This document shows positions 22 through 12,629 of a stretch of DNA of 32,409 nt, in pieces (within the stretch, counting starts at the first letter, position 1; each line of letters starts with the position of its first letter). The notes under the pieces were generated by a model that was not told the origin of the DNA, searched no databases, and worked only from the letters and a program-made list of their open reading frames with translations. The stretch comes from an uncultured Prolixibacteraceae bacterium (GTDB lineage: Bacteria > Bacteroidota > Bacteroidia > Bacteroidales > Prolixibacteraceae). The DNA is taken from the NCBI GenBank assembly GCA_903834475.1, contig CAILJH010000214.1, positions 1 through 32,409 of the forward strand, in the 5' to 3' direction. Both the position numbers and the translations under genes were made by a program.

Positions 22-39
22 ATGAGGCAAGTAATTCCC

Positions 40-142
40 TTTCGCCATCCCTTCGCCGGCATTACCCGTATCAGGTTCGGTGGGTGTGATCTCAGCCTGA
101 ACTTACCCCGACTTTCGTCAGGAAGGCACCCCATTGCGTAAA
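40..142 (-). promoter_or_regulatory. TPP (thi-box) riboswitch
   Basis: The minus strand carries the conserved thiamine pyrophosphate aptamer blocks in order: GGGGTGCC (132–125), CTGAGA (about 97–92), then GAACCTGATACGGGTAATGC and GGCGAAGGGA. P2 can form between GGGGTG and CACACCC, and P3 is extended. P1 can form between TTTACGC (142–136) and GCGAAA (45–40). This RNA senses TPP and normally represses thiamine synthesis or uptake genes. The regulated gene lies left of position 1 and is not visible. The match to the consensus is very strong; which gene it controls is unknown. Confidence 0.95.
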
Positions 143-437
143 TTGATGGGGTAAAAGTAGCCTTTTAAATGGATTGAATCCAATCTTTCTTAGAAAAAGT
201 GTTCACGGTCCTTTTCTTCTTCATGGAATGAAGTCTTCGAAATTCATAGAACTCTAAAAATTTGGTCCTTTCGGAAAAATTGTCATTTTCCGTTTCCTGA
301 TTTCTGAAATATTGACATCAAAAATGATTTTATGGCACTACTAATCAGACATATAGATTTTGGTATTGGGTTTGAAAAAGTCTTAAACGAAAACAATTAA
401 TAAAACAAAGTCTAACTAAAAAATGGAGGATTAAGTT

Positions 438-869
438 ATGTTACCAGTATTTAAAACCAGAAACTTACCGGGTATATTTGACGAATTCCTGAGCGGAAAC
501 TTACTTCCGAATTTTATTGAAGAAGGAGCATGGAAATCAACTCCGGCTGTAAACATTTACGAAAACAATGAAAAATTTGAAATTGAAATTGCAGCTCCCG
601 GTCTCGAAAAAGATGATTTCAAGATTGATTTGAAAGACGAATACCTGACGGTCTATTCTGAAAAGAAAGACAAAAAGGAAGAAAAGGAAAAAGGGAAAGT
701 AGTTCGTTCCGAATTCAGGTACTCATCTTTCCAGCGTTCGTTCTCATTGCCTCATGAAATTGATGTGACGGCCATAAATGCTAACCACAAGAACGGGGTT
801 TTGACTATCGAACTGCCAAAAAAAATAGAGTATAAGAATAATCTGTCACGTCAAATCGAAATCCAATAA
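438..869 (+). CDS. Small heat-shock protein, Hsp20/alpha-crystallin family
   Basis: This 143-residue protein is a cytoplasmic holdase chaperone of the IbpA/Hsp20 type, which binds unfolding proteins without ATP. The alpha-crystallin domain covers about residues 34–132. It contains the signature NGVLTIELPK near residues 119–128, and the tail ends in an IEI sequence, the I-x-I motif used for oligomer assembly. The length is typical. An unusually good ribosome-binding site, GGAGG at 425–429, sits 8 nt before the ATG; such sites are uncommon in this phylum and suggest high expression. The 286 nt upstream hold no gene and I found no clear TAnnTTTG box there. The gene is monocistronic, with a terminator right after it. 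Confidence 0.93.
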   Translation: MLPVFKTRNLPGIFDEFLSGNLLPNFIEEGAWKSTPAVNIYENNEKFEIEIAAPGLEKDDFKIDLKDEYLTVYSEKKDKKEEKEKGKVVRSEFRYSSFQRSFSLPHEIDVTAINANHKNGVLTIELPKKIEYKNNLSRQIEIQ

Positions 870-11297: not shown

Positions 11298-11687
11298 TTA
11301 TGAACCGAGGAGTTGACGCAATTTGAGGATTTGTGAATTCCAGAGTTCGGCAGTTTGTTTGGCTTCGTCCTCATCGGCAAAATCAACAATCAGAAGTGAA
11401 ACATCGTTGGTTAAATCATCCTGAGTGATAACAAATTCGAAATAAGCTTCCTCTCTCTCCAACTCATCATCAATCCATTCATATCGAACGTTCTTATTTT
11501 CCTTATGATTCTTTTTTTCTGCGACCTGATCGCTATCGCCCCAAACAAAAGTGAATATATTTCCTTTCACCCGAACATCATCAGCAAACCATTCTGTCAG
11601 TCCCGATGCCGTACTCAGCCTGTTAAAGAGCACTTTAGGTGAGCAGTTCATCGGGTATTCCAATTGTAATTTCGTTTTTCCAGCCAT
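11298..11687 (-). CDS. START-like domain protein (Bacteroidota family)
   Basis: A 129-residue protein matching the conserved Bacteroidota START-like (SRPBCC helix-grip) family. Key stretches are QLEYPMNCSPKVLFNRLSTA, SGLTEWFADDV, VSLLIVDFADEDEA and a final helix ELWNSQILKLRQLLGS. Members have a hydrophobic pocket, but no ligand is established to my knowledge. The ATG at 11687 (MAGKTKLQLEY) is preferred; the frame is open to 11717, adding ten residues unlike the family. No signal peptide is seen. It is the first gene of the run leading to lptF and the glycosyltransferases, with the 416-nt region holding the tRNA remnants upstream, so a link to envelope lipid handling is possible. Confidence 0.88.
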   Translation of the reverse strand: MAGKTKLQLEYPMNCSPKVLFNRLSTASGLTEWFADDVRVKGNIFTFVWGDSDQVAEKKNHKENKNVRYEWIDDELEREEAYFEFVITQDDLTNDVSLLIVDFADEDEAKQTAELWNSQILKLRQLLGS

Positions 11688-11907
11688 CGGGTAATTGATT
11701 TTCTGCAATATAGACAAATAAACAAGAAAACACTATATACCCTGAAATGCACCCGATGTTTTTTATATTTCCGTAACATATCTTCAGGTAAGCATTTTAT
11801 GGCTCTTGTATGTATTTATGCATACTGGAACAGGCACAAAAGCCTGTCTCATGAATTCATTGAACGAAAAAAGCATTCTAAATTTTTCTTAACTCTTCAT
11901 TTTTATT

Positions 11908-11959
11908 TAGCGAGAGCCCCGATTGGTGGGGACGCTCTAACCAACTGAACTGCCTCAAT
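11908..11959 (-). pseudogene. tRNA-Met remnant 2 (anticodon arm missing)
   Basis: The minus strand reads TTGAGGCAGTTCAGTTGG then TTAGAGCG, a tRNA 5' half with a D-arm. It passes into a CCCC/GGGG hairpin and ends with CTCTCGCTA, identical to the 3' end of the intact tRNA-Met at 12502–12575. It is only 52 nt long: the anticodon arm and part of the T-arm are gone. It cannot act as a tRNA. It follows the truncated GIY-YIG tail at 11953–12000. Confidence 0.75.
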
Positions 11960-12000
11960 TCTGAGTATTGAATCAAATTCTCGTGATTTACTTCCGACTT
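11953..12000 (-). pseudogene. Truncated GIY-YIG nuclease C-terminus
   Basis: Sixteen codons (12000 down to 11953) align without gaps to the last sixteen codons of the GIY-YIG gene at 12134–12391. By my count 33 of 48 bases and 9 of 16 residues match (pattern KSxVxxExLIxxSExR). Both copies meet a tRNA-like sequence at the same codon; the stop TAG of the intact gene is CAG here. The rest of the gene is missing, the copy beginning near the terminator at 12021–12057. This is a remnant of a duplicated unit. Confidence 0.7.
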
Positions 12001-12020
12001 CAGGCAAGAGTTCGACAAAT

Positions 12021-12057
12021 AAAAAAAAGCTATAAGAAATAAATCTTATAACTCTTT
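12021..12057 (-). terminator. Terminator-like hairpin after tRNA remnant 1
   Basis: On the minus strand AAAGAGTTATAAG (12057–12045) can pair with CTTATAGCTTT, followed by a T-run. It is closely similar in sequence and place to the hairpin after the intact tRNA-Met (12455–12491), which supports duplication of a tRNA-plus-terminator unit. Confidence 0.7.
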
Positions 12058-12073
12058 CATATTCACACAGATA

Positions 12074-12143
12074 TGGTCATGGCTGGTCGGGACGACCTTC
12101 CCGATTTTTATCGGGACGCCCAAACCAGCTGAGCTACCTCGAT
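12074..12143 (-). pseudogene. tRNA remnant 1 overlapping the GIY-YIG 3' end
   Basis: CGAGGTAGCTCAGCTGGTT (12141–12123) is identical over 19 nt to the 5' half of the intact tRNA-Met. The anticodon arm is replaced by a palindrome, TCCCGAT–AAAA–ATCGGGA, with no usable anticodon. AGGTC matches the variable region. The T-arm and acceptor 3' strand have no proper match. T8, A9 and G10 of this remnant form the stop codon of the nuclease gene. A functional tRNA is very unlikely. Confidence 0.75.
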
Positions 12144-12391
12144 TCCGAGTTTCGAATCAAACTTTCAAGATATACTCTGCTTTTCTTCCTTTTTAATTGG
12201 TTTTCGCGAATGAGTGCTATAGTTTTGGTAGGCAAAGTCTTAGTATAAACAACCACCCATGGCCGACCTGTTTTGGTCGATGAAGTAGCACCTGCATTAT
12301 GTCTGCTTATACGCTGCTGAACATCGGCTGTGCTGCCAATATAGAAGTGATCACGAGATTCGCTATAAAGTATGTAAACGAAGTGAGGCAT
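12134..12391 (-). CDS. GIY-YIG nuclease domain protein (UPF0213/YhbQ-like)
   Basis: An 85-residue single-domain GIY-YIG protein. It has VYI at 5–7 and YIG at 17–19, the catalytic arginine in QQRISRHNAG (R27) and the metal-binding glutamate E63 in RENQLKRKK. The fold is that of homing nucleases and UvrC, but small stand-alone members have no firmly known role. It starts with MPHFVYILYS, as usual. Its end is unusual: the final residues SESR and the TAG stop run into a tRNA-like sequence. It sits between the terminator of the intact tRNA-Met and that remnant, and a 16-codon copy of its tail lies 137 nt further on in front of another remnant. I infer that it travels or is duplicated with tRNA genes. 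Confidence 0.9.
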   Translation of the reverse strand: MPHFVYILYSESRDHFYIGSTADVQQRISRHNAGATSSTKTGRPWVVVYTKTLPTKTIALIRENQLKRKKSRVYLESLIRNSESR

Positions 12392-12454
12392 AGTAATTAG
12401 TCAGATCAATTAAAAATACAACACTTGCCCAAATATTTTAACTTATTTGAATAT

Positions 12455-12491
12455 AAAAAAGAGTTACAAGAAATTCATCTTATAACTCTTT
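12455..12491 (-). terminator. Intrinsic terminator of tRNA-Met
   Basis: The minus strand has AAAGAGTTATAAG (12491–12479), an 8-nt loop, then CTTGTAACTCTTT running into TTTTTT. It is 10 nt after the tRNA 3' end, and its near-copy lies at 12021–12057. Confidence 0.85.
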
Positions 12492-12501
12492 CATTTTAAA
12501 G

Positions 12502-12575
12502 TAGCGAGAGGCGGGCATGATCCGCCGACCTCGCGATTATGAATCGCGCGCTCTAACCAGCTGAGCTACCTCGCC
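12502..12575 (-). tRNA. tRNA-Met, anticodon CAU
   Basis: A complete 74-nt cloverleaf on the minus strand. The acceptor GGCGAGG pairs with TCTCGCT (G·U at both ends, discriminator A). D-stem GCTC/GAGC; anticodon stem CGCGA/TCGCG with loop TTCATAA giving CAT; variable region AGGTC; T-stem GGCGG/CCGCC. CCA is not encoded. The G1·U72 pair and lack of initiator features favour elongator Met; the lysidine-modified Ile(CAU) type is the alternative. The T-loop ATCATGC is odd: A54 and T58 replace the usual T54 and A58. A promoter-like TATATTTG lies about 55 nt upstream and a terminator follows. Confidence 0.92.
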
Positions 12576-12629
12576 ATTAATTTCCTGAACTTGCATCAAA
12601 TCGTCTTGTGGGGCTCTTTTTTGCGGTTG

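Follow-up and report, generated by a model that had tools for sequence, protein, structure and literature searches.

Small GIY-YIG nuclease genes adjoin tRNA genes and spare, palindrome-bearing tRNA parts across Bacteroidota: a candidate minimal mobile element

The window analysed here, a stretch of 32,409 nucleotides spanning positions 1 to 32,409 of contig CAILJH010000214.1 from an uncultured Prolixibacteraceae bacterium, carries on its minus strand a tRNA-Met gene followed by a GIY-YIG nuclease gene, the end of a second one and two altered pieces of tRNA-Met. The features are given below as they come on the minus strand; coordinates of the tRNA and the ORFs were computed, and all others were read by eye.

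12576..12610 (-), leader of tRNA-Met, TTTGATGCAAGTTCAGGAA; a comparable leader is found in the congeners G463 and G462
12501..12575 (-), intact tRNA-Met, anticodon CAT (ARAGORN; Rfam RF00005, 58.3 bits)
~12454..12491 (-), terminator-like intrinsic hairpin past the intact tRNA (by eye)
12134..12391 (-), GIY-YIG nuclease gene, 85 aa (PF01541, E=3.8e-17)
12081..12140 (-), tRNA-Met remnant 1, with an almost full 5' part and with its anticodon and T arms replaced
12099..12116 (-), palindrome TCCCGATAAAAATCGGGA, which replaces the anticodon arm of remnant 1
12021..12058 (-), second terminator, a near-copy of the 12454..12491 hairpin (by eye)
11957..12004 (-), final codons of a second GIY-YIG copy, now decayed (tail alignment)
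11907..11956 (-), tRNA-Met remnant 2, with TCCCCACCAATCGGGGCT in place of its middle and the 3' end CTCTCGCTA of the intact tRNA
11298..11717 (-), neighbour gene (ORF), which we take to be START-like and which served as the anchor for related loci

A sequence-only reading of this DNA had described an array of GIY-YIG, tRNA and terminator units beside tRNA-Met, and ARAGORN, Rfam, PF01541 and the alignment of the two nuclease tails all show that array to be real. The window protein scores 62.8 bits against PF01541 (cut-off 22.6), and the stop codon of its 85-aa ORF is remnant 1's own TAG. The second remnant does have the intact tRNA's final CTCTCGCTA, as had been stated. The resemblance between the two 48-nt nuclease tails also goes beyond shuffled sequence, with none of 20,000 shuffles reaching the observed identity and the best reaching 25, but the count is 30 of 48 identical bases and not the 33 of 48 first given. 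In both window remnants the anticodon arm has been replaced, a point on which that reading was silent; the palindrome TCCCGATAAAAATCGGGA has an expectation of 0.05 per shuffled window. What had been taken for a possible third trace of the nuclease tail, upstream of the intact tRNA, proved to be ordinary tRNA-Met leader, similar leaders being present in G463 and G462, both of which are without a GIY gene at tRNA-Met. Between tRNA-Met and the next gene in the window, the GIY-YIG gene is the sole ORF of at least 50 aa, and an integrase ORF of that size is absent from the same interval. No Rfam intron reached its gathering score in the window, and the GIY ORF stands alone rather than within an intron or intein, as do the genes of free-standing homing endonucleases. 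Elsewhere in the window, a TPP riboswitch lies at 31-143 (-), with 64.7 bits.

The window protein carries the conserved residues of the GIY-YIG motif, which in a 292-row alignment of the family, as shares of the rows that are not gapped at that position, are Y 99%, Y 99%, G 99%, R 97%, H 100% and E 98%. The two motif tyrosines, the arginine and the glutamate belong to the GIY-YIG active site. NCBIfam TIGR01453 matches the protein weakly (21.2 bits vs. a cut-off of 56.05). The best matches of the family among solved structures are to UPF0213 proteins (1zg2, E=1.4e-14; 1ywl, E=1.5e-12) and to SLX1 (7cq2, E=7e-7), the latter annotated as a structure-specific endonuclease, from which the genes described here may differ in their genomic setting, with a tRNA partner and a spare part of it. 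A phage or plasmid origin of the window gene was considered and set aside: tblastn at 1e-5 gave no match to the protein in 50,697 phage records and none in the plasmid collection.

Small single-domain GIY-YIG genes adjoining tRNA genes are a widespread pattern in Bacteroidota. Family matches were obtained from 63 of the 149 genomes searched in the order and from 195 of 296 at the level of the phylum, counts that may include relatives away from tRNAs; because related GIY genes that do not adjoin tRNAs exist, the figure of 195 overstates the tRNA-bound kind. Beyond the loci derived from searches, we drew 60 stretches from the order list, down to about E=1e-5, and a further 80 from the top of the phylum list, giving a sample that leans to higher-scoring matches. 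The resulting 291 GIY matches form 211 clusters, 60 of which hold from two to five GIY copies. Left out of these counts were L002, L025, L041, L123 and L125 (duplicate places), L003 and L004 (other GIY genes) and L005-L019, which had been collected for their palindromes; clusters whose flank on one side is shorter than 300 nt (42) and those outside Bacteroidota (7) were counted apart.

The finding that the sequence-only reading had named as its refutation, relatives that never adjoin tRNAs, did not come about: in 142 of the 162 Bacteroidota clusters that have at least 300 nt on both sides, ARAGORN calls a same-strand tRNA no more than 300 nt away (111 upstream, 26 downstream and 5 both), and on the opposite strand within that distance in none of the 162. 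Of these 142 tRNAs, those called in L022 and L070 are altered copies that lack a proper anticodon. The nearest tRNAs of the clusters comprise 29 anticodons and, with all flanks counted, a tRNA-bound cluster is present in 109 of 129 sampled Bacteroidota genomes, the sample having been picked by GIY matches. Among the 20 well-flanked clusters that lack a called tRNA, L202 sits on tmRNA, its GIY gene coming straight after the tmRNA and before a hairpin-bearing remnant of the tmRNA 3' end (336-1030), while L133, L094 and L213 have a tRNA found by Rfam some 320-550 nt upstream. Eight clusters without a called tRNA were read individually, and some of them contain tRNA halves (e.g., L110, L184, L021 and L124).

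A family match is found in 21 of the 23 genomes of the genus, where 28 loci were examined in all. A tRNA is called within 300 nt at 18 of 18 loci (15 places) scoring at least 67 bits to the family profile, at 0 of 10 loci scoring below 65 bits, and likewise not at L004; at least two of the genus tRNA calls are altered copies (L266 and L269). Given this split by score, the tRNA-bound GIY genes are a subfamily. We had also entertained an association limited to Bacteroidota, since none of the first seven loci from outside the phylum adjoined a tRNA, but further copies in the same seven genomes, presumably Patescibacteria and alphaproteobacteria, brought the count to 8 of 29 loci with an adjoining same-strand tRNA, and the claim was therefore dropped. 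At 4 of those 8 loci a spare tRNA copy scores better than 60 shuffles. The 1-Mb genome G468 (Magasanikbacteria) holds 13 copies of the family, and five examined loci there (among L324-L352) adjoin tRNAs.

The spare tRNA part comes in two forms that mirror one another. Class I has the order tRNA, terminator, GIY gene, 3' part of the same tRNA, terminator; class II has the order promoter, 5' part, GIY gene, promoter copy, tRNA. The spare copy was tested in 155 clusters, regions containing N, short regions and undetermined tRNAs being omitted. In class I it scored better than 60 shuffles in 116 of 127 clusters and better than 40 tRNAs of other kinds in 109, and 95 of the 112 clearest copies stop exactly at the tRNA 3' end. 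In class II it was better than shuffles in 25 of 28 clusters, and 22 of the 24 clearest copies start within the first 5 bases. Break points range from the first bases to about position 50. Either form reads as if a GIY gene had entered a tRNA gene, with a duplication that preserves one whole tRNA. At three loci (L110, L022 and L184) the tRNA 3' half precedes the GIY gene, and no 5' half was seen there.

Units can be repeated many times over with little divergence, as in L153, where five 315-bp units with 99% identity stand in tandem on tRNA-Asp, and in L041, where three near-identical units stand on tRNA-Val. The proposal that nuclease and tRNA genes duplicate as one unit thus holds for tandem duplication itself, seen directly at loci such as these two, but not for the content of the unit, which in class I is a tRNA 3' part, a terminator and a GIY gene rather than a whole tRNA. 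The best Pfam GIY-YIG match of the window's own genome (L001) adjoins tRNA-Asp and combines several of these features: upstream are two tRNA-Asp 5' parts, each with the palindrome TCCCGAGTACTCGGGA in its D loop, then the intact tRNA, and downstream of it a terminator, the GIY gene, a 3' part with TCCCGAGTACTCGGGA in its T loop and another terminator.

The lineages of the GIY genes track the type of tRNA, also from one host family to another. In a tree built from 153 GIY domains, the anticodon label of the nearest tRNA changes 65 times, compared with a mean of 118 for shuffled labels (least 112), and 69 times vs. 118 once the C-terminus is trimmed. For 61 of the 153 tips, the nearest tip from another family bears the same anticodon, compared with 10.5 in shuffles (most 23). 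Vertical descent may be responsible in part for the clustering of isotypes on this tree, and the Gly-GCC elements belong to a single host family.

Palindromes recur within the partial tRNA copies. They were sought in 150 clusters, with the same kinds of region and tRNA omitted as for the spare copies, and in 98 of these the spare region contains, directly against tRNA sequence, a palindrome foreign to the intact tRNA; some such palindromes are terminators. Counting any palindrome, 128 of 150 spare regions have one, whereas shuffles predict 49.6 and control stretches have one in 142 of 371 cases; this count is inflated because the 190-nt regions can include terminator copies, which are palindromic as well. 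The fair count is the strict one, which demands tRNA sequence on both sides and yields 80 palindromes in 73 clusters; by linear position, the arm replaced to within one base is the anticodon arm for 27 of them, while the T arm contains 25 and the D arm 4. A core of the form TCCCG...CGGGA occurs in 69 of 131 abutting palindromes. The window's own genome contains TCCCGA-N(0-12)-TCGGGA 23 times, and we considered whether these palindromes lie solely in tRNA remnants, which was the case for just 5 of the 18 whose surroundings were viewed. Across genomes the median density of this pattern, with kinship ignored, is 3.49 per Mb where there is a GIY match and 0.97 per Mb where there is none (p=7e-10); for the reversed control pattern the corresponding values are 0.49 and 0.38 per Mb (p=0.65).

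Sister species differ in the presence of the GIY gene at one and the same tRNA, as alleles of a single site do for free-standing homing endonucleases. We compared the tRNA-Met locus across the genus by anchoring it on one neighbour gene, which is present in 20 of 23 genomes and adjoins tRNA-Met in 19 of the 20, the window's own genome included. An intact GIY gene is present in 5 of these 19 genomes and a fragment in 2, while 12 have none within the stretch examined. Two of the five genomes with an intact gene have two copies each, both fragment-bearing genomes also have remnants, and one of the 12 GIY-free genomes, G461, retains upstream a 5' remnant with a palindrome (by eye). Two other genomes of the family, G465 and G072, have no GIY gene at this locus. 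Only in the window's own genome and in G463 does the tRNA-Met gene point the way of the neighbour gene; in the remaining 17 it is reversed. G463, with a neighbour gene 99% identical and both flanks common to the window, is without the GIY gene and without the downstream remnants. A window-type GIY gene hidden elsewhere in G463 was looked for; after the best match, L269, comes a palindrome-bearing tRNA remnant that resembles tRNA-Val by eye, and because of this remnant and the lack of a blastn match to the window locus we regard it as another element.

On the neighbour-gene tree, whose branches are weak, the presence and absence of the GIY gene take a minimum of 4 changes, which may be gains or losses. 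Recent transfer was considered as well. Between the window's own genome and the four others with an intact gene, the GIY proteins are 64-71% identical and the neighbour gene 76-78%; among those four, the values are 77-92% and 91-97%. Since the GIY proteins are thus about as similar as the neighbour gene or less so, there is no sign of recent transfer at tRNA-Met.

Taken together, these observations lead us to a reading to which we give a probability of about 0.7, namely that the genes belong to a minimal selfish element of ~300-400 bp, composed of a free-standing single-domain GIY-YIG gene and a spare piece of the host tRNA. Such an element would live on tRNA genes and, at least once, on tmRNA. 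Most probably the nuclease would cut the tRNA gene, and repair would then copy in a cassette of tRNA 3' part, terminator and GIY gene, or its mirror image; insertion of such a cassette would keep one tRNA intact and leave a displaced part over. Units pile up in tandem and then decay, and recombination between the repeats would make the array grow, shrink or disappear. The palindromes in the spare part probably serve to mark, or to block, the places where cutting or recombination happens. Targeting of the tRNA locus by the nuclease, as the sequence-only reading had proposed, would accord with the agreement of gene lineage and tRNA type, the presence polymorphism and the behaviour of phage SegB, all of which lend it indirect support. 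Counting against the selfish-element reading are the missing sign of recent transfer at tRNA-Met, the anchoring of that locus on a single neighbour gene, the tilt of the sample to higher-scoring matches, the related GIY genes away from tRNAs, the possible share of vertical descent in the isotype clustering and the modest 8 of 29 loci outside Bacteroidota; moreover, for a tRNA to stay intact alongside its own nuclease would take some form of protection.

SegB, the phage protein just mentioned, is larger, with a GIY-YIG domain and a long C-terminal part. According to the accessible parts of the published accounts, it is a free-standing GIY-YIG homing endonuclease encoded in the tRNA region of phages T4 and T6 (PMC13096335, PMC2988022), cuts inside tRNA genes and drives amplification of a tRNA-segB repeat (PMC13096335). 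The same excerpts report a short stretch of homology shared by the 5' end of the tRNA and the 3' end of segB, a motif RAWTSGAAC, and a survey by the authors that took in phage and archaeal virus proteins, bacterial chromosomes not being included (PMC13096335). The reverse complement of the motif, GTTCSAWTY, is present in 139 of 312 of our tRNA entries, repeats counted, and by reading would fit the tRNA T loop. As far as the SegB excerpts go, the two systems have in common GIY-YIG genes adjoining tRNAs, tandem tRNA-nuclease units, short homology of a tRNA 5' end with the nuclease gene's 3' end, and many kinds of tRNA. However, SegB is phage-borne and, in what we have of its description, without palindrome-replaced partial tRNAs (PMC13096335), whereas the present elements are chromosomal, single-domain and hairpin-scarred and usually have one partial tRNA per unit. 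Among the matches listed in our literature search, whose coverage leaves most subscription journals outside, no publication on tRNA-tied chromosomal GIY-YIG genes appeared.

Alternatively, the GIY genes could be passive cargo, left over from phages or other elements that integrate at tRNA genes, with the partial tRNAs as attachment-site scars. Integration commonly leaves partial copies beside tRNAs; in the available part of the report on PYG1, a ~21.4-kb integrative element of Pyrococcus yayanosii, a tRNA gene serves as the site, a partial copy is left and one tRNA stays whole (PMC9897764), and the 3' halves that precede the GIY gene in L110, L022 and L184 would suit such an origin. Unlike PYG1, however, our units are just ~300-400 bp, with only the GIY gene between the copies in the window; class II keeps 5' halves; the break points vary as described; and in none of the 162 well-flanked clusters is a tRNA called on the opposite strand. 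We consider passive cargo improbable. Slippage or unequal exchange could also have duplicated a tRNA and its neighbour neutrally, the GIY gene having no role, and the near-perfect tandem units (e.g., L153) and the 60 of 211 multi-copy clusters are what this would produce, but it leaves unexplained why one gene family should be found at 29 anticodons in 109 sampled genomes, why its tree should carry an anticodon signal and why its lower-scoring relatives are tRNA-free; to our minds neutral duplication is quite improbable.

Two further accounts would give the nuclease a function. As a device serving the host, it might amplify its tRNA on demand, for dosage or for escape from tRNA-cutting toxins, much as T6 SegB, by the accessible text, amplifies a tRNA-Tyr unit and thereby defeats Septu (PMC13096335). 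However, in the loci that we read the extra copies are partial or broken by hairpins, so the dosage of working tRNA would not rise, and we give this account very little credence. Were the nuclease instead to act on tRNA itself, with the altered copy as a decoy or antidote RNA, one could understand why ARAGORN still takes some altered copies for tRNA (L022, L025 and L239); in many copies, however, so much of the 5' or 3' part is missing that a tRNA fold would be impossible, and the relatives of solved structure are UPF0213 and the structure-specific SLX1, which makes an RNA-level system most improbable in our judgement.

Returning to the selfish element, a bolder variant is that recognition of tRNA genes is guided in part by shape: an SLX1-like nuclease would cut tRNA arms extruded as DNA hairpins, insert with a spare tRNA half and swap the cut arm for a genomic TCCCG...CGGGA palindrome. 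We regard this joint reading as doubtful. Shape-guided cutting would, on this hypothesis, account for both the arm replacements and the tmRNA case; if it is true, the dispersed palindromes of Bacteroidota are products or partners of GIY nucleases, and host tRNAs and tmRNA are partly element-borne sequence. Palindromes moved by a dedicated enzyme are the hallmark of the REP/RAYT type; the corresponding observation here is a correlation, that of palindrome density with GIY matches. The palindromic GC clusters of yeast mitochondria are likewise short, mobile-looking and varying in sequence, but they are mitochondrial and, in the part of the source available, are not tied to partial tRNA copies as the present palindromes are (PMC4478555).

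If the selfish-element reading is correct, the highly conserved tRNA genes of bacteria house a common element small enough to pass as noise, some partial or odd 'tRNA-???' calls are explained, chromosomal genes are linked to phage SegB amplification, and a source is suggested for the dispersed palindromes. The same layout at more than a hundred relatives in other bacteria points to a form of mobile DNA, so far overlooked, that resides on tRNA genes and leaves them whole.

Several single loci deserve mention in their own right. In L025 (828-2569), tRNA-Val copies with a foreign anticodon arm flank the intact tRNA on both sides, alongside two GIY copies, and several of the tRNA-Val copies are called 'tRNA-???' by ARAGORN. 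In L239 (G443) the intact tRNA is preceded by three tRNA-Met 5' copies that carry palindromes and is followed by remnants and two GIY genes. A few hundred bases from the GIY gene of L097, an RT-7 RNA match at 518-675 (-) falls below threshold (83.2 vs. 116.8 bits). The window's own genome contains at L016 (~1480-1550) a tRNA-Gly remnant with TCCCGAGTACTCGGGA in its anticodon arm, near intact Gly and Leu tRNAs, and in congeners (L273 and L276) a GIY gene lies near Gly/Leu tRNAs. The GIY stop codon of L153 apparently comes from the palindrome that follows the gene (TAG in TCCCGACTAGTCGGGA, ~842-860), with L032 and L106 similar, and at class II tRNA-Arg loci, e.g., L084, several genomes share the palindrome CCTGCCTGCCGGCAGGCAGG within the D loop of their tRNA-Arg 5' parts.
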